From: Pseudodesulfovibrio pelocollis
Lineage (GTDB): Bacteria > Desulfobacterota > Desulfovibrionia > Desulfovibrionales > Desulfovibrionaceae
Direction: 5' to 3'
DNA: 50,494 nucleotides
NCBI RefSeq assembly: GCF_030282845.1
Contig: NZ_JASTWE010000027.1
Span: forward strand, 1-50,494
The translations under genes were made by a program, and so were the position numbers. Positions 18,551 through 40,836 of the stretch are shown in pieces. Numbering within the stretch: the first letter of the stretch is position 1; every line of letters begins with the position of its first letter. The notes beneath the pieces were generated by a model. The model had not been told where the DNA came from, made no database searches, and saw only the letters and a list, made by a program, of their open reading frames with translations.

Positions 18551-18565
18551 GCAATGGCCGTGCCA
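18551..18565 (-). promoter_or_regulatory. Sigma-54 promoter of the dCache-kinase/TauE operon
   Basis: The minus strand reads TGGCAC-GGCCA-TTGC, an exact match to the -24/-12 consensus with the correct GG-N10-GC spacing. Predicted start near 18539 gives a leader of about 60 bases before ATG 18478. Confidence 0.75.
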
Positions 18566-25616: not shown

Positions 25617-26429
25617 TCAGATGGCGGTTCGCAGTTGGTCGGCCGGGGTGGTGGAGTAAGTGCGCGCGGCTTGGTCCAGGCCGCACAGGGCGGCCCCCAG
25701 CGCTCCGGTCATGTCCGGCTCGTCAGGGATGAGGATGTCGGACCCCACGGCTCCCCCCAGCGCCCGGGCCAGCAGGGACACGACGCACGGGTTGTTGGCC
25801 ACGCCGCCCGTGAAGACCAGGGGCGGCTCGTGGCCCACCCGGCCAAGCATGTTCACCGTGCGTTTGACGATGGCCGCGTGAAGGCCCAGGGCGATGCTCT
25901 CGGGCCGCGCCCCGCGCGCCATGAGCGAGGTGGCCTCGGTCTCGGCGAAGACCGTGCACATGGCGCTGATCTCGGGCGGGTCCGTGCCCTTGAGCGCGTA
26001 GGCGCCGAACTCCTCCACCGGAATCTGGAAGACCCCGGCGGTGTACTCCAGGAACTTGCCTGTCCCGGCGGCGCAGCGGTCGTTCATCTCGAAGCGGACG
26101 ACCCTGCCCTGGCGCAGGGTCATGGCCTTGGTGTCCTGGCCGCCGATGTCCAGCACCGAGCGCGCCCCGGGGAAGAGATGGGCCGCGCCCCGGGCATGGG
26201 CCTTGATCTCGGTGACGGCGGCGGTCTGGCAGTCAAGACCCAGGCGCTGGACAAGGGCGCGGCCGTAGCCGGTGGCGACGAGGGCGGCGGGCCGCAGCCC
26301 GTCCAGCAGCCCGGCGCACCGGGCCACCGGGTCAAAGGTGGTGGGCGAGCGTCTGGCGAGGATCACCTCGCCGTTTTCCACGCCCACCAGCTCGATGGAG
26401 CGGGAGCCGATGTCCAGCCCGACGATCAC
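25617..26429 (-). CDS. Acyl-CoA dehydratase-type activase (ATP-dependent electron activator, DCCP reductase-like)
   Basis: 270 residues of the BcrA/BadF/HgdC ASKHA family. ATP-binding motifs are GLDIGSRSIELV (4-15), DIGGQDTKA and FTGGVANN. Two cysteines expected to bridge a [4Fe-4S] cluster between the two subunits of a homodimer are Cys119 (NDRCAAGTGKFLE) and Cys158 (SAMCTVFAETE). Such proteins push low-potential electrons into a partner at the cost of ATP, much as NifH does for NifDK. The GTG start at 26429 overlaps the stop codon of the upstream dehydratase-like gene by four bases, so the two are translationally coupled. No dedicated CoA-pathway genes are nearby, which favours a non-dehydratase role. 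Confidence 0.88.
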   Translation of the reverse strand: MIVGLDIGSRSIELVGVENGEVILARRSPTTFDPVARCAGLLDGLRPAALVATGYGRALVQRLGLDCQTAAVTEIKAHARGAAHLFPGARSVLDIGGQDTKAMTLRQGRVVRFEMNDRCAAGTGKFLEYTAGVFQIPVEEFGAYALKGTDPPEISAMCTVFAETEATSLMARGARPESIALGLHAAIVKRTVNMLGRVGHEPPLVFTGGVANNPCVVSLLARALGGAVGSDILIPDEPDMTGALGAALCGLDQAARTYSTTPADQLRTAI

Positions 26430-27718
26430 GCCAGGGTCTCCACAAAGGCCTCCACCCGCGTCTTGAGTTGTTCCACGTCCTCCATGGAGTAGTCGGTCTC
26501 GATGGAGAGCATGGGGATGCCTGCCTTGGTCAGAGCCTTGTCCATCTTGAGCGCCTCGTGGGAGTATGGCTGGCAGAAGAGCAGGCTGTAGTGGATGACG
26601 CCGTCCGCCTTGAGCTTCCCGGCCAGGTCGGCGACGTTGTCAAGTCGCTCGTCGTTGGGCGTGAAGCAGGCACAGTCGATCTTCATGTAGCGGTCGGCGA
26701 TGGCGTCGAGCATACCCTCCAGGGTGGTGGCGGATTCGTCCACCAGATCGCGGGAGTTGCGGGTGCCGATGCAGGATTCCTCGCCAACAATGACCGCGCC
26801 AGCGCTCTCGACCACATAGGGGAGCTTCCAGTTGGGCACGGCCATGGGACAGCCCGAGAGCAGGAGCCGGGGCGTGTTGGGCGGAGTCACGCCGCGACCC
26901 GCCTCGACGCGGGCCTGAAGCTCGTCGCACAATTCGTTGATCTTGGTCGTGAAGCGCACCGGGTCGTCGTAGAAGCTGATTTGGTTGACGAGCAGGGCAT
27001 CGCGGCCGGAGATGGGCGCGGGCGAGGCGGCGCGCAGCCCGGTCAGGCGTTGCAGGGCGCGCCGCTTGGCGTTGGCCGTTCTGATGCCCTGGGCGAGTTT
27101 TTCGGCCGTGATGGTCCGGCCGGTGACCCGCTCCAACTCGGCCATGTAGCGCTTCACCTCGGAGCGCCACAGCGCGCGGGCGGCCGGGGTCTTGGTCTGC
27201 GGCACCTCCATGACCCAGGTGGGGGCGATCTCGTTGAAGGCCTCGTAGGCCTTCTTCTTTCCGTCACAGGTGGTCTCGCCCACGATGAGGTCGCTTGATT
27301 CGATGAACGGGCACAGCCGGGCCATCTTGAAGCCGATGAAGGATTTGATCAGGGCGCAGGTGTTGCGCGGCACCAATTGCTCGGCCAGGTTCGTGCCCGC
27401 CTCGGCCCCGGCGCACAGGCCCACATGGACGGCATCGGCGGCCAGGGTGATCTCCTCGGGCACGAAGACACAGAATGAGCCCACCACCTTGCGCCCGGCG
27501 GCCTTGGCTTCCTGCAATTCCTTGATGCGCAGGCCGTGCACCTCGGAGAGGACAAAGTCGAGATACTCGGCACCGCGCAGCCGGTTCTGCTGGGACAGGT
27601 AGATGTCGCCATAGAACTTGCCCAGCACCTCAAGCAGCGCGTCGTGGGCGGAAAGATCAAGATTCAGGGTTTCCCACATCGCCTTGTGGGGCGAGTCGGC
27701 GTGTATCGAGTCCGGCAT
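26426..27718 (-). CDS. 2-hydroxyacyl-CoA dehydratase-like protein, probable double-cubane-cluster reductase
   Basis: 430 residues of the HgdB/2-hydroxyglutaryl-CoA dehydratase family. Conserved cysteines include GSFCVFVPEE, GETTCDGKKKAYE, LSGCPMAVPNWKLP, GEESCIGTRN and LLFCQPYSHE. A dehydratase needs two different large subunits. Here a single subunit is encoded with its activase. That fits the double-cubane cluster protein (DCCP) family, whose studied member in Carboxydothermus carries an [8Fe-9S] cluster and reduces small molecules such as acetylene in an ATP-dependent way. The physiological substrate of that family is unknown. AAGGAGG lies four bases upstream of ATG 27718. The neighbouring genes are for nitrogenase. 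Assignment to DCCP rather than a dehydratase subunit is inferred from gene organisation and motifs. Confidence 0.82.
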   Translation of the reverse strand: MPDSIHADSPHKAMWETLNLDLSAHDALLEVLGKFYGDIYLSQQNRLRGAEYLDFVLSEVHGLRIKELQEAKAAGRKVVGSFCVFVPEEITLAADAVHVGLCAGAEAGTNLAEQLVPRNTCALIKSFIGFKMARLCPFIESSDLIVGETTCDGKKKAYEAFNEIAPTWVMEVPQTKTPAARALWRSEVKRYMAELERVTGRTITAEKLAQGIRTANAKRRALQRLTGLRAASPAPISGRDALLVNQISFYDDPVRFTTKINELCDELQARVEAGRGVTPPNTPRLLLSGCPMAVPNWKLPYVVESAGAVIVGEESCIGTRNSRDLVDESATTLEGMLDAIADRYMKIDCACFTPNDERLDNVADLAGKLKADGVIHYSLLFCQPYSHEALKMDKALTKAGIPMLSIETDYSMEDVEQLKTRVEAFVETLA

Positions 27719-30233: not shown

Positions 30234-31142
<909 letters not shown>

Positions 31143-33587: not shown

Positions 33588-34961
33588 ATGCTACTCAGAC
33601 ACACACCCAAGGAAGTGGCGGAGCGCAAGGCCCTGGCCATCAACCCGGCCAAGACCTGCCAGCCCATCGGGGCCATGTATGCGGCGCTGGGCATACACGG
33701 CTGCCTGCCCCACAGCCACGGTTCGCAGGGCTGTTGCGCCTACCACCGCTCGGCCCTGACCCGGCACTACAAGGAGCCGATCTCGGCCGCCACCAGCTCG
33801 TTCACCGAGGGCGCGTCCGTGTTCGGCGGGCAGGCCAACCTGCTCCAGGCCATCAACAACATCTTCACGGTCTATGAGCCCGAGGTCATTGCCGTGCACA
33901 CCACCTGTCTCTCGGAGACCATCGGCGACGATCTCAACCAGATCTTCGAGAAGGCGCGGCGCGAGGGCAAGGTGCCCGAGGGCTGCACCCTGGTGGGCGC
34001 GCCCACCCCGAGCTATGTGGGCTCCCACGTCACCGGCTTCTCCAACATGGTCAAGGCCATGGCCCAGCTGGCCGAGCCATCGGGCAAGAAGAGCGGCAAG
34101 GTCAACATCATCCCCGGCTGGGTCGAGCCTGCGGACATGGCCGAGATCAAGCGGCTGGCCACCCTGGTCGGTGTGCCCGTGACCGTGTTCCCGGACACCT
34201 CCGGCGTGCTCGATGCCCCGCTCACCGGCGAATACACGATGTTCCCGCAGGGCGGCGTGACCATCAAGGAGCTCAAGGCCAGCGGCGACGCCACGGCCAC
34301 CCTGGCCATGGGCGAGTGGTGCTCGGCCGATGCCGCCCGCTGGCTCGACGCCAAGTGCAAGGTCCCCTGCACCGTGCTCGACATGCCCTTTGGGCTGGCC
34401 GCCACCGACCGCTTCATCGACGTGCTGCGCACCGTGGCCGGAGTGACCGTGCCCGACGCTGTGGCTGTGGAGCGCGGCCAGCTGGTGGACCTCATCTCGG
34501 ACATGCACCAGTACCTCTACGGCAAGCGCGTGGCCCTGTGGGGCGACCCGGACCAGCTCATCTCCATGTGCGAGTTCCTGGTCAGCCTCGACATGCAGCC
34601 CGTGTACGTGGTCACCGGCACGCCGGGCAAGAAGTTCGAGGAGCGCATCCGCGAGATCTGCGCGGGCAGGCCCTTCGAGGTCAAGGTCAAGGCCAAGGGC
34701 GACATGTTCCTGATGCACCAGTGGATCAAGAACGAGCCCGTGGACCTGCTCATGGGCAACTCCTACGGCAAGTACATAGCCCGCGACGAGGACATCCCGC
34801 TCTTGCGCTGGGGCTTCCCCATCCTGGACCGCCAGGGGCATCAGTACTTCCCCACGGTGGGCTACCGGGGCGGGCTGCGGCTGCTCGAGAAGATGCTCGA
34901 CCAGTTCCTCGACCGCAAGGACCGTGACGATCCGGAAACCTCTTTCGAACTCGTCCTCTAA
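33588..34961 (+). CDS. nifK: Nitrogenase MoFe protein beta subunit (NifK)
   Basis: 457 residues. P-cluster ligands are Cys24 (AKTCQPIGAMYAALG), Cys49 or 50 (HGSQGCCAYHR) and Cys107 (VHTTCLSETIGDD). The N-terminus is short, without the 50-residue arm of Azotobacter NifK, which matches the longer NifD of this nitrogenase group. GGGAG lies upstream, 18 bases after nifD. It pairs with NifD as the alpha2beta2 MoFe protein. A GC-rich hairpin follows the stop codon. Confidence 0.97.
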   Translation: MLLRHTPKEVAERKALAINPAKTCQPIGAMYAALGIHGCLPHSHGSQGCCAYHRSALTRHYKEPISAATSSFTEGASVFGGQANLLQAINNIFTVYEPEVIAVHTTCLSETIGDDLNQIFEKARREGKVPEGCTLVGAPTPSYVGSHVTGFSNMVKAMAQLAEPSGKKSGKVNIIPGWVEPADMAEIKRLATLVGVPVTVFPDTSGVLDAPLTGEYTMFPQGGVTIKELKASGDATATLAMGEWCSADAARWLDAKCKVPCTVLDMPFGLAATDRFIDVLRTVAGVTVPDAVAVERGQLVDLISDMHQYLYGKRVALWGDPDQLISMCEFLVSLDMQPVYVVTGTPGKKFEERIREICAGRPFEVKVKAKGDMFLMHQWIKNEPVDLLMGNSYGKYIARDEDIPLLRWGFPILDRQGHQYFPTVGYRGGLRLLEKMLDQFLDRKDRDDPETSFELVL

Positions 34962-35033: not shown

Positions 35034-36206
35034 ATGGCGATCATCTCACCCGCAAGCCCCACCCATCCCTGTTTCGGGAGCGCCTCGCGGCGCGGCGAGG
35101 GGCGGATGCACCTGCCGGTGGCCCCCCGGGCCGTGGCGCGCAGCCGCTTCGCCCCGGACACGCCCCAGGTGTCGCCCGCTCTGGTGGCCACCCCGGACGA
35201 GGCCCTGGCCATGCTCGACCGGGCATTGGCCGACGGCGCGCCCATCAGCATGGTAGGCATCACCGGCCCGGGCGACCCCATGGCCACGCCCGAGGCTGCC
35301 CTGCGCACCCTGCGGCTGGTGCGGGACAAGTACCCGGACATGCCCCTGTGCCTGACCACCTTGGGGCTGGGGATAGGGACTGTGGCCGGGGAGTTGGCCG
35401 CCATCGGTCTGTCCCACGTCACCGTGCTGGTGGACGCCGTGTCCGCCGAGGTGGCCCAGGGAGTGTATGCCTGGATTCGCCCCTCCACCCGGACCATGCC
35501 GCTGCCCCTGGCCGCGCAGGTGCTGGTGGACGGGCAGCGGCGGGCCGTGACCGCCCTGGTCGAGGCCGGGCTGACCGTCAAGATCAACACCACGGTCCAT
35601 GCCGGGGTCAACGCCGAGCATGTGGAGACTATCGCCCAGACCATGGCCGCTCTCGGCGCGACGATCATGACCGTGGTCCCCTTCTGGCCGGGCGGCGAAA
35701 ACGGCGCAGCCCAGCCGGACATGGACCTGCTGGCCGCCGTGCGCGAGAAGGCGGCCCGGCACCTGGCCCTGACCCCCTCCTGGGGCGAGTGCGGCGATGT
35801 CGTGCCCACGGCCGCCAGGCCGGTGGCCTCGTCGCTGCCCCGGCCCGTTGCCGGGCGGCCCAACGTGGCCGTGGCCAGCGCGGGCGGCATGGACGTGGAC
35901 CTGCACCTGGGCCATGCGTTCAAGCTGCTCATCTACGGCCCGCGCGAGGACGGCCTGGCCTGCCTGCTCGAAACCCGCGACGCGCCCGAGCCGGGCGGAG
36001 GCGACAGCCGCTGGGAGGGATTGGCCGACATCCTGACCGACTGTTTCGTCCTGCTGGCGGCCAGCGCCGGGGAGCGCCCCAGAGAGATTTTGCACCGCCG
36101 GGGCGTGACCGTCCTGATCACCGAGGGCGAGATCGAGGGAACCGTGGATGTCCTCTACGGCGGCGGCAAAAAGGGCAAGGGCCGCATGGAGCGGCGCAAC
36201 ACATAA
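35034..36206 (+). CDS. NifB-like protein lacking radical-SAM cysteines, fused to NifX-like domain
   Basis: 390 residues that align by eye with NifB (39562-40836) along most of their length. Shared features include HPCF, (V/M)HLPVAP, ITGPGDPMATPEAAL versus IAGPGDPFANPAEVL, GLSHVTVLVDAV, VKINTTVHAGVN versus VKINSIIIPGVN, and a C-terminal NifX-type cofactor-binding domain (RPNVAVASAGG...LHLGHAF). However, where NifB has CNIQCNYC this protein has AVARSRFA (about 33-40), and the ESRP motif is missing too. It therefore cannot hold the radical-SAM [4Fe-4S] cluster. It may bind or pass on NifB-co/FeMo-co precursor, or be a scaffold. It is intact, with AAGGA upstream, and sits between nifK and the ferredoxin gene. 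Confidence 0.85.
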   Translation: MAIISPASPTHPCFGSASRRGEGRMHLPVAPRAVARSRFAPDTPQVSPALVATPDEALAMLDRALADGAPISMVGITGPGDPMATPEAALRTLRLVRDKYPDMPLCLTTLGLGIGTVAGELAAIGLSHVTVLVDAVSAEVAQGVYAWIRPSTRTMPLPLAAQVLVDGQRRAVTALVEAGLTVKINTTVHAGVNAEHVETIAQTMAALGATIMTVVPFWPGGENGAAQPDMDLLAAVREKAARHLALTPSWGECGDVVPTAARPVASSLPRPVAGRPNVAVASAGGMDVDLHLGHAFKLLIYGPREDGLACLLETRDAPEPGGGDSRWEGLADILTDCFVLLAASAGERPREILHRRGVTVLITEGEIEGTVDVLYGGGKKGKGRMERRNT

Positions 36207-36221
36207 AGGAGAACGAGAGAC

Positions 36222-36521
36222 ATGGCTACCCCCGCGAAAATGATCATCTGTTGCCAGAGCTTCCGCGCCCAGGGCGACCCCAAGGGCATCTGTCACAAGC
36301 AGACCGACGGCTTCTTGCAGTACATCGAGGAGGAGATTCTCGACCGGGGTATTGACGCCCTGGTGGTGGCCTCCACTTGCCTCAAGCAGTGCGAGTCCGG
36401 CCCCATCATGGTCGTCCAGCCCGAGAACTGGTGGTTCAAGGGCGTTGCCAGCGAGGAGGCCATCGACGCCATCCTCGACGGCCTGGAAGACGGCGAGCAG
36501 TGCGCCGAGTACGCGCTGTAG
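36222..36521 (+). CDS. Thioredoxin-fold [2Fe-2S] ferredoxin of the nif operon
   Basis: 99 residues. Cys10, Cys11, Cys24, Cys53 and Cys57 (MIICCQSF, KGICHK, STCLKQCESGP) give the spacing of the Clostridium/Azotobacter-type thioredoxin-like [2Fe-2S] ferredoxins. The segment IMVVQPENWWFKGV is also typical. Such ferredoxins are common in nif clusters and may donate electrons to nitrogenase or to cofactor assembly. It starts 15 bases after the preceding gene with AAGGAG upstream. Confidence 0.92.
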   Translation: MATPAKMIICCQSFRAQGDPKGICHKQTDGFLQYIEEEILDRGIDALVVASTCLKQCESGPIMVVQPENWWFKGVASEEAIDAILDGLEDGEQCAEYAL

Positions 36522-39561: not shown

Positions 39562-40836
39562 ATGGCAGTCAAGGACATCACCAGGCACCCCTGTTTCAAC
39601 AAGGAAACCGCCGGAAGCTGCGGCCGGGTCCACCTGCCCGTGGCCCCCAAGTGCAACATCCAGTGCAACTACTGCAACCGCAAGTATGACTGCGTCAACG
39701 AGTCGCGTCCGGGTGTGACCAGCGGCATCCTCAAGCCGTTCCAGGCGGCCGAGTACATGGACCAGGTGCTTGCCAAGGAGCCGCGCATCACCGTGGCGGG
39801 CATTGCCGGTCCGGGCGACCCCTTTGCCAATCCCGCCGAGGTCCTGGAGACCATGCGTCTGCTCAACGAGCGCCATCCCGAGCTGCTCTTCTGTCTGTCC
39901 AGCAACGGCATGGGCATCCTGCCGTACCTGGACGACATCGCGGCCCTGGGCGTGTCCCATGTGACCATCACCATCTCGGCCGTGGACCCGGCCATCGGGG
40001 CCAGGATCTATGCCTGGGTCAAGGACGGCAACGTGGTCTACCGGGGCGAGGCGGGCGCGGCCCTGCTGCTGGAGCGCCAGTTGGCCGCCATCAAGGGCCT
40101 CAAGGAGCGCGGCATTGTGGTCAAGATCAATTCCATCATCATTCCGGGCGTCAATGAGGACCACCTGCCCGAGGTGGCCCGGGTGGTGGCCGAGCTGGGG
40201 GCGGACATCCAGAACATGATCCCCCTCAAGCCCACCCAGGACACGCCCTTTGCCGAACTGGGCGAGCCCGGGCGCGAGGTGGTCCTGCCCCTGCGCAAGG
40301 CGGCGGGCGAGCATATCGACCAGATGACCCACTGCAAGCGGTGCCGGGCCGATGCCGTGGGGCTGCTCGGCGATGACCAGTCCGCGGCCCTGTGCGGCAC
40401 GCTCCAGGCTTGTGCCAAGCTCAAGCCTCTGGATGCTGCCATGGCCCGGCCTCATGTGGCCGTGGCCACCCGCGAGGGCATGCTGGTCAACCAGCATCTG
40501 GGCGAGGCCAGGACCTTTCAGATATGGGGACAAAGCGAGAGCGGCGGCTACCGCCTGATCGAGGAGCGCCAGGCCCCGGCGGCAGGCTGCGGCCCCCAGC
40601 GCTGGTCCGACCTGGCCGCGCTGCTCAAGGACTGTCGCGCGGTGGTGGCCGCGGCCATGGGCGAGACCCCGCGCATGCTTCTGGAGGAACACGGCGTGGC
40701 CCCCCACACCGTCACCGGGTTCATTGAGGACGCGCTCCGGGCCATCTACGAGACCGGCGACCTCAAGGCGCTCAAGGGAAGGCGCGGCGGCATCGCGGGC
40801 GGCTGCTGCACCGGCACGGGCGCAAGTTGCGGTTGA
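39562..40836 (+). CDS. nifB: NifB, radical-SAM FeMo-cofactor core synthase with NifX domain
   Basis: 424 residues. It makes NifB-co, the [8Fe-9S-C] precursor of FeMo-co, using radical SAM chemistry. The SAM cluster motif is CNIQCNYC (Cys31, Cys35, Cys38). The N-terminal HPCF, Cys44 and ESRP (47-50) motifs of NifB are present. The C-terminal NifX-like domain (about 295-405, RPHVAVATREGMLVNQHLGEA) is fused as in many bacteria. The tail is Cys-rich (GGCCTGTGASCG). It is the last gene of the operon, followed by a terminator. Confidence 0.97.
   Translation: MAVKDITRHPCFNKETAGSCGRVHLPVAPKCNIQCNYCNRKYDCVNESRPGVTSGILKPFQAAEYMDQVLAKEPRITVAGIAGPGDPFANPAEVLETMRLLNERHPELLFCLSSNGMGILPYLDDIAALGVSHVTITISAVDPAIGARIYAWVKDGNVVYRGEAGAALLLERQLAAIKGLKERGIVVKINSIIIPGVNEDHLPEVARVVAELGADIQNMIPLKPTQDTPFAELGEPGREVVLPLRKAAGEHIDQMTHCKRCRADAVGLLGDDQSAALCGTLQACAKLKPLDAAMARPHVAVATREGMLVNQHLGEARTFQIWGQSESGGYRLIEERQAPAAGCGPQRWSDLAALLKDCRAVVAAAMGETPRMLLEEHGVAPHTVTGFIEDALRAIYETGDLKALKGRRGGIAGGCCTGTGASCG

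Follow-up and report, generated by a model that had tools for sequence, protein, structure and literature searches.

A NifB paralogue without radical-SAM cysteines in the nif operon of Pseudodesulfovibrio pelocollis, a candidate nitrogenase cofactor chaperone

Introduction

Why does a nif operon that already encodes a complete NifB keep a second NifB-type protein without the cysteines of the radical S-adenosylmethionine (SAM) cluster? The question is raised by a 50,494 nt stretch of the Pseudodesulfovibrio pelocollis contig NZ_JASTWE010000027.1 (the window, the whole DNA analysed, to which all plain coordinates refer). Here, an intact open reading frame of 390 aa occupies the slot between nifK and a 2Fe-2S ferredoxin gene (fdx), 72 nt after the former and 15 nt before the latter. 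We refer to it as the slot gene and to its product as the slot protein. In the radical-SAM superfamily, a protein without the SAM cluster does not start radical chemistry, so the slot protein should be unable to perform it. We propose, with about even credence, that it is a dead NifB recruited as a NifX- or NafY-like nitrogenase cofactor chaperone, with the barrel as a cradle or docking domain. Transport of the oxygen-sensitive 8Fe precursor between NifB, NifEN and NifDK remains to be solved, both in nitrogenase biology and for engineering the enzyme into new hosts.

The slot protein keeps the NifB fold and loses the SAM cluster

An earlier reading of this locus, made from the sequence alone, had described a NifB paralogue with an intact frame, the NifB landmarks and a C-terminal NifX-like domain, in which AVARSRFA replaces the CxxxCxxC motif and ESRP is missing. 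This description holds. HPCF (with H11-P12-C13 as the HPC motif), HLPVAP, GPGDP and VKIN are all present, PF02579 matches the C-terminus at 33.2 bits (cut-off 26.3), and the whole 'YDCVNESRP' loop is deleted. The true NifB of the same genome keeps both the SAM-cluster cysteines and this loop. With the NifB model TIGR01290 (cut-off 343.65), the slot protein scores 163.6 bits, below the cut-off, and the true NifB 386.9.

In M. thermautotrophicus NifB (PDB 7bi7), the SAM cluster sits on CxxxCxxC, a capping loop carries a Cys and a Glu, and C18, H31, C115, C260 and C263 hold the fused [8Fe-8S] K cluster (PMC9692996). Profile alignment to PDB sequences pairs C13, H26, C106 and C253 of the slot protein with four of these ligands and W250 with C260 (Table 1). 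C13, C106 and C253 are the only cysteines of the barrel in the window, and all of them fall on K-cluster ligand positions. The Cx2CRxDAxG motif of NifB is reduced to a single Cys (W250-G-E-C253-G-D). A partly different list is given for M. acetivorans NifB, with C30, C63, C129 and H43 for K1 and C264, C274 and C277 for K2 (PMC7145814, PMC6053413); by this list, the equivalent of C63, inside the deleted loop, is also lost. The predicted structure adopts the NifB-type barrel by fold alignment, and the ligand positions rest on sequence and fold alignment together. Compared with NifB (TIGR01290; PDB 6y1x, 7bi7, 7jma/7jmb), the slot protein thus shares the barrel fold, HPCF, HLPVAP, GPGDP, the C-terminal NifX-like domain and four of the five 7bi7 K-cluster ligands, whereas the SAM-cluster cysteines, the ExRP/capping loop and all but one Cys of CxxCRxDAxG are gone.

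The best PDB profile match of the C-terminal domain is 1p90 (1.5e-6), which we take to be the NafY core, followed by NifX 9ian (4.1e-5); the difference is too small to assign the domain to NafY or to NifX. The NifX model TIGR02663 (cut-off 112 bits) does not match the full-length window protein at E 0.001, and gives 23.6 bits at locus L049.

The slot is conserved among relatives

The sequence-only reading had held the gene to be kept and not decaying, and had pointed to related nif operons as the place to find the same cysteine-less protein. It is found there. With the slot protein as query, 81 of 148 related genomes gave a match at E 1e-20. By hand count, the genus of the window comprises 36 genomes including the window's own, and 31 of them have a NifB-type match; 29 of the 31 carry the paralogue and two have true NifB only. 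Both nifK and fdx were read beside the gene in 28 of the 29 carriers, and in genome G008 the match is split over two contigs. The order nifK-[slot gene]-fdx holds at every locus with both neighbours readable, with one exception (L001), where about 4.9 kb separates nifK from the slot gene.

A phylum-wide profile search of 395 genomes added slot genes in families f20, f21, f69, f82, f84 and f107, with the slot unchanged, and many sulfate reducers keep the gene next to those for nitrogenase. Named records with the gene include a Pseudodesulfovibrio metagenome-assembled genome (MAG; L002), a Desulfovibrio MAG (L003) and Candidatus Electrothrix gigas (L001). The profile survey covers Thermodesulfobacteriota genomes, and the wider contig scan covers close relatives. 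Because the queries were the slot protein or a profile of its relatives, close relatives are over-represented among the homologues. Conservation in many independent assemblies rules out a sequencing error, a frameshift or chance. Over 10 pairs of relatives, several of which share a member, the ratio of nonsynonymous to synonymous substitution rates (dN/dS) lies between 0.08 and 0.39 for the whole slot protein, which shows purifying selection. Together with the fold, the conserved slot and the trees described below, this argues for a retained gene.

An invariant His accompanies a variable set of K-type ligands

Sixty barrel-bearing slot proteins were compared; the count leaves out L002, which ends at a contig edge, and the L116 slot barrel, used in the 107-row tree only. 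The NifX-type cofactor His is present in 60/60 and the radical-SAM triad in 3/60. The K-type set (an N-terminal Cys, H26, C106 and a K2-segment Cys) is found in 39 of the 60. This count uses loose windows and not exact columns: the N-terminal Cys could lie up to 18 residues before H26, and the other anywhere in the K2 segment. Six of these 39 belong to family f21, in which the N-terminal and K2-side cysteines are shifted by a few residues, so that their equivalence is only inferred.

The pattern is sharper among the 38 core proteins of family f1. Cys occurs at the C13 position in 36, at C106 in 34 and at C253 in 37; none has Cys at the first K2 position or at any of the three SAM positions. 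A set of 26 NifB proteins has 91 near-invariant barrel columns, of which the core f1 slot proteins keep only 31 at 90%. In a comparison not confined to these 38, W or F takes the place of one K2 Cys in 32/47.

Trees fit a single duplication followed by stepwise loss

A starred branch in a tree of 83 barrels has all 37 NifB proteins on one side. When the tree is enlarged to 107 rows, 54 NifB proteins (99*) and 50 triad-less slot proteins (96*) each lie to one side of a branch, and three proteins that keep the SAM triad are placed between them. These three locate at the same nifK-fdx locus (L044:6400-7620, +; L045:6499-7722, -; L046:8026-9234, -). The sequence-only reading had named three-cysteine homologues as a sign of sequence error. 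Such homologues do exist in the slot, but they form a separate branch and do not indicate an error here. Near-duplicate rows of the enlarged tree were thinned by 16, and two genomes are present twice (L100/L126, L058/L109). The trees are quick, unrooted searches with Shimodaira-Hasegawa approximate likelihood ratio (SH-aLRT) supports, and contain long branches. The unrooted topology fits one duplication into the slot, then loss of the triad, with the K-type ligands lost later in several lines.

Family f4 has a different occupant. At four loci (L051-L054), the nifK-fdx slot holds only a stand-alone NifX-like gene (a frame of 124 aa in L052). The tree of C-terminal domains, built from 101 columns, places this lone domain among those of the slot proteins (supports 90 and 81), which suggests that it is a trimmed descendant in which the barrel was dropped and the carrier domain kept. 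If this is true, family f4 would illustrate a route from a duplicated NifB to a NifX-type carrier, and the lineage offers a step-by-step case of a maturase becoming a carrier protein.

A chaperone function is the favoured reading

In the history that we envisage, a nifB copy would have settled between nifK and the ferredoxin gene and lost its SAM-cluster cysteines and capping loop. In the NifX-like domain, H291 would then hold a cluster in the way that H35 does in NifX. The barrel, with most ligands of the 8Fe K cluster (C13, H26, C106, C253), may act as the cradle or docking domain, take up NifB-co, the 8Fe precursor, or a similar cluster and present it to NifEN or apo-NifDK. We infer that a cluster is bound, and likewise the cargo, its partner and the direction of transfer. 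The chaperone reading is drawn from two precedents. The C-domain His of NifX holds NifB-co (H35 in A. vinelandii; PMC13128457), and its counterpart in the slot protein is invariant. NafY and AnfO are described as two-domain carriers that bind both cofactor and immature nitrogenase.

The comparison with known carriers is close in one domain only. NifX (A. vinelandii, PDB 9ian) shares the PF02579-type domain and the NifB-co-binding His, but it is small, and in the slot protein the domain is attached to a degenerate NifB barrel. The NafY/NifY/AnfO chaperones share the carrier domain, a second domain (NafY, AnfO) and a gene beside nifK; in the slot protein, however, the second domain is a dead NifB barrel. 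Just after nifK/nifT is where nifY lies in other diazotrophs. Of the roles that the sequence-only reading had offered, NifB-co carrier or chaperone is the best supported, by the invariant His, the K-type set in most proteins and the family with the carrier domain only; we keep it conditional. For the regulator of NifB or NifEN that the same reading had offered, the evidence speaks neither way. A more specific version appears to us possible but doubtful, namely that a SAM-stripped NifB keeps the 8Fe cradle, holds a K/L-type cluster it cannot make and passes it to its own NifX domain. A natural NifB without SAM chemistry and with most 8Fe ligands kept could trap NifB-type clusters for study without turnover.

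Several observations weigh against a cofactor chaperone. True NifB also carries a NifX-like domain. The nif region was read in 20 NifB-bearing genomes for which the search of 148 gave no paralogue match; nifK is followed directly by fdx in 13 and by nifE in three, and in four no nifK is in view in the stretch read. N. vulgaris plasmids (two records) carry nifK-fdx-E-N-B without the paralogue, so that published mutants of this species do not bear on it. Since some related diazotrophs have no slot gene, nitrogen fixation as such does not require it, and it is an accessory. The slot protein is less constrained than NifK, whose dN/dS is lower (0.06 to 0.15) in 8/8 pairs compared. Because the full K-type set is incomplete in 21/60, holding a cluster in the barrel cannot be a function that all members share. 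The three triad-bearing proteins show the reverse pattern, with the triad kept and the K-type ligands partly or wholly gone, which speaks against a uniform cluster role. Finally, the structural model is weak at residues 1-20 (predicted local distance difference test scores of 41 and 63) and 251-270 (65 and 59), the segments holding C13 and C253.

Alternative functions

A NafY/NifY-like insertase is an unlikely alternative that deserves attention. Here, the barrel would tether apo-NifDK without binding a cluster, and the C-domain would hand finished FeMo-co to NifDK. This would account for the 21 incomplete ligand sets, and both the 1p90 match and the two-domain architecture of NafY and AnfO agree with it. 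The slot gene appears to track nifDK and fdx, because no nifE, nifN or nifB follows it in at least 4 kb read at 10 of 64 slot loci (60 with the barrel and four with the lone domain); one of the ten (L128), however, has nifE/N/B upstream. The NafY and NifX profile scores do not favour one over the other, and an insertase leaves unexplained why most core proteins retain C13, H26, C106 and C253 when other barrel cysteines were lost.

Another candidate role is that of a pre-assembly scaffold or donor, in which these four residues would hold a single [4Fe-4S] cluster, or a K-type pair, for delivery to NifB. Three Cys and one His suffice as ligands of one cubane; K1 of M. thermoacetophila NifB is held by C29, H42 and C128 plus a Glu (PMC9692996). 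We regard this role as quite improbable: it does not need the invariant NifX-type His, the slot gene is absent from lineages with intact NifB, and one K2 Cys has been exchanged for W or F in most of the proteins compared.

Somewhat less probable still is a pseudoenzyme partner that pairs with NifB as a heterodimer, or competes with it, and so tunes NifB activity. The predicted model retains the NifB fold, and NifB forms a homodimer in both A. vinelandii and K. oxytoca (PMC5715403). On the other hand, at ten loci the stretch read downstream of the slot gene contains no nifB, and the ligand retention is again unexplained. A functionless nifB duplicate in decay is largely refuted and scarcely credible. 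The gene does evolve faster than nifK, and some lineages have lost most ligands, but the frame is open, the dN/dS values are those given above, the slot is conserved across families and the His is invariant.

Known sequences and families

Among the matches listed in the PMC literature, limited by licence, we found no description of the slot protein. In one survey, 28% of NifB-annotated sequences were dropped for missing motifs, mostly Cx3Cx2C, and considered NifX (PMC5715403). Because sequences without Cx3Cx2C were treated in this way, proteins of the present kind may have been overlooked among them.

Pseudo-SAM/SPASM proteins (NCBIfam TIGR04347) resemble the slot protein by name only, as radical-SAM-type barrels without a working SAM cluster; they are a different family. 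We know of no tie between them and nif.

We also considered counts of PF02579 genes as a sign that the paralogue replaces another NifX, and rejected them, as each of 14 genomes has 5 to 11 matches and the counts do not discriminate. Besides the slot protein and nifB, the window genome has two PF02579 genes over the cut-off in a locus with MinD-type ATPases, presumably MrpORP, and one beside a sigma-54 activator.

The locus and its surroundings

The gene order is nifH-nifI1-nifI2-nifD-nifK-[slot gene]-fdx-nifE-nifN-nifB, with nifA on the opposite strand (Table 1). Matches to the -24/-12 consensus at no more than one mismatch number 3 in the whole window, versus 4.8 expected by chance; the likely nif operon promoter is assigned by its position before nifH and not by the match count.

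Table 1. Coordinates of the slot gene, its residues and its neighbours in the window
Feature	Position	Strand	Remarks
Slot gene, cysteine-less NifB paralogue, 390 aa, intact frame	35034..36206	+	stop included
Degenerate NifB-type radical-SAM barrel, residues 1-255	35034..35798	+	
C13 (HPCF), aligned with bridging K-cluster Cys C18 of 7bi7	35070..35072	+	ligand assignment from PMC9692996
H26 (HLPVAP), aligned with K1 His ligand H31 of 7bi7 / H43 of M. acetivorans NifB	35109..35111	+	
AVARSRFA, radical-SAM Cys positions A33, S37, A40; capping ExRP loop after it deleted	35130..35153	+	
GPGDP motif, residues 78-82, retained	35265..35279	+	
C106 (LCLTT), aligned with K1 ligand C115 of 7bi7	35349..35351	+	
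W250 in place of K2 ligand C260 (7bi7); C253 retained at C263 position	35781..35792	+	
C-terminal NifX/NafY-like domain, residues 270-390	35841..36203	+	PF02579; PDB 1p90 and NifX 9ian by profile
H291 (DLHLGHA), aligned with NifX His binding NifB-co (H35 in A. vinelandii)	35904..35906	+	alignment to NifX 9ian; NifX H35 from PMC13128457
nifK, upstream neighbour	33588..34961	+	
2Fe-2S ferredoxin gene (fdx), downstream neighbour	36222..36521	+	
True nifB, ligand motifs intact	39562..40836	+	TIGR01290 386.9 bits, over cut-off
Exact -24/-12 (sigma-54) consensus match, likely operon promoter	30255..30269	+	45 nt upstream of nifH ATG (30315)

A second exact -24/-12 match, which may be chance, lies outside the nif operon at 18551-18565 (-). 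Near the nif cluster, 25617-27718 (-) holds genes for a BadF/BcrA-type ATPase and for an HGD-D (2-hydroxyglutaryl-CoA dehydratase D-like) protein. Together they resemble a double-cubane cluster protein and its reductase, a system that is unusual among Fe-S proteins in its own right.

Other NifB-like architectures were seen in the surveyed genomes. In genus g40 of the same family, a 928-aa fusion joins NifN, NifB and NifX domains with CxxxCxxC intact (L050:4536-7319, -; G074). Long frames also occur in G254, G310, G335, G479 and G516, where open-frame length alone points to the same fusion. The NifN-NifB-NifX architecture has been described as confined to Firmicutes (PMC5715403). Away from the nif cluster, G013 encodes a short single-domain NifB-like radical-SAM protein with CxxxCxxC (L055:3965-4936, +), and G023:C1:2735376-2736134 is another short single-domain candidate; the CxxxCxxC check covered L055 alone.
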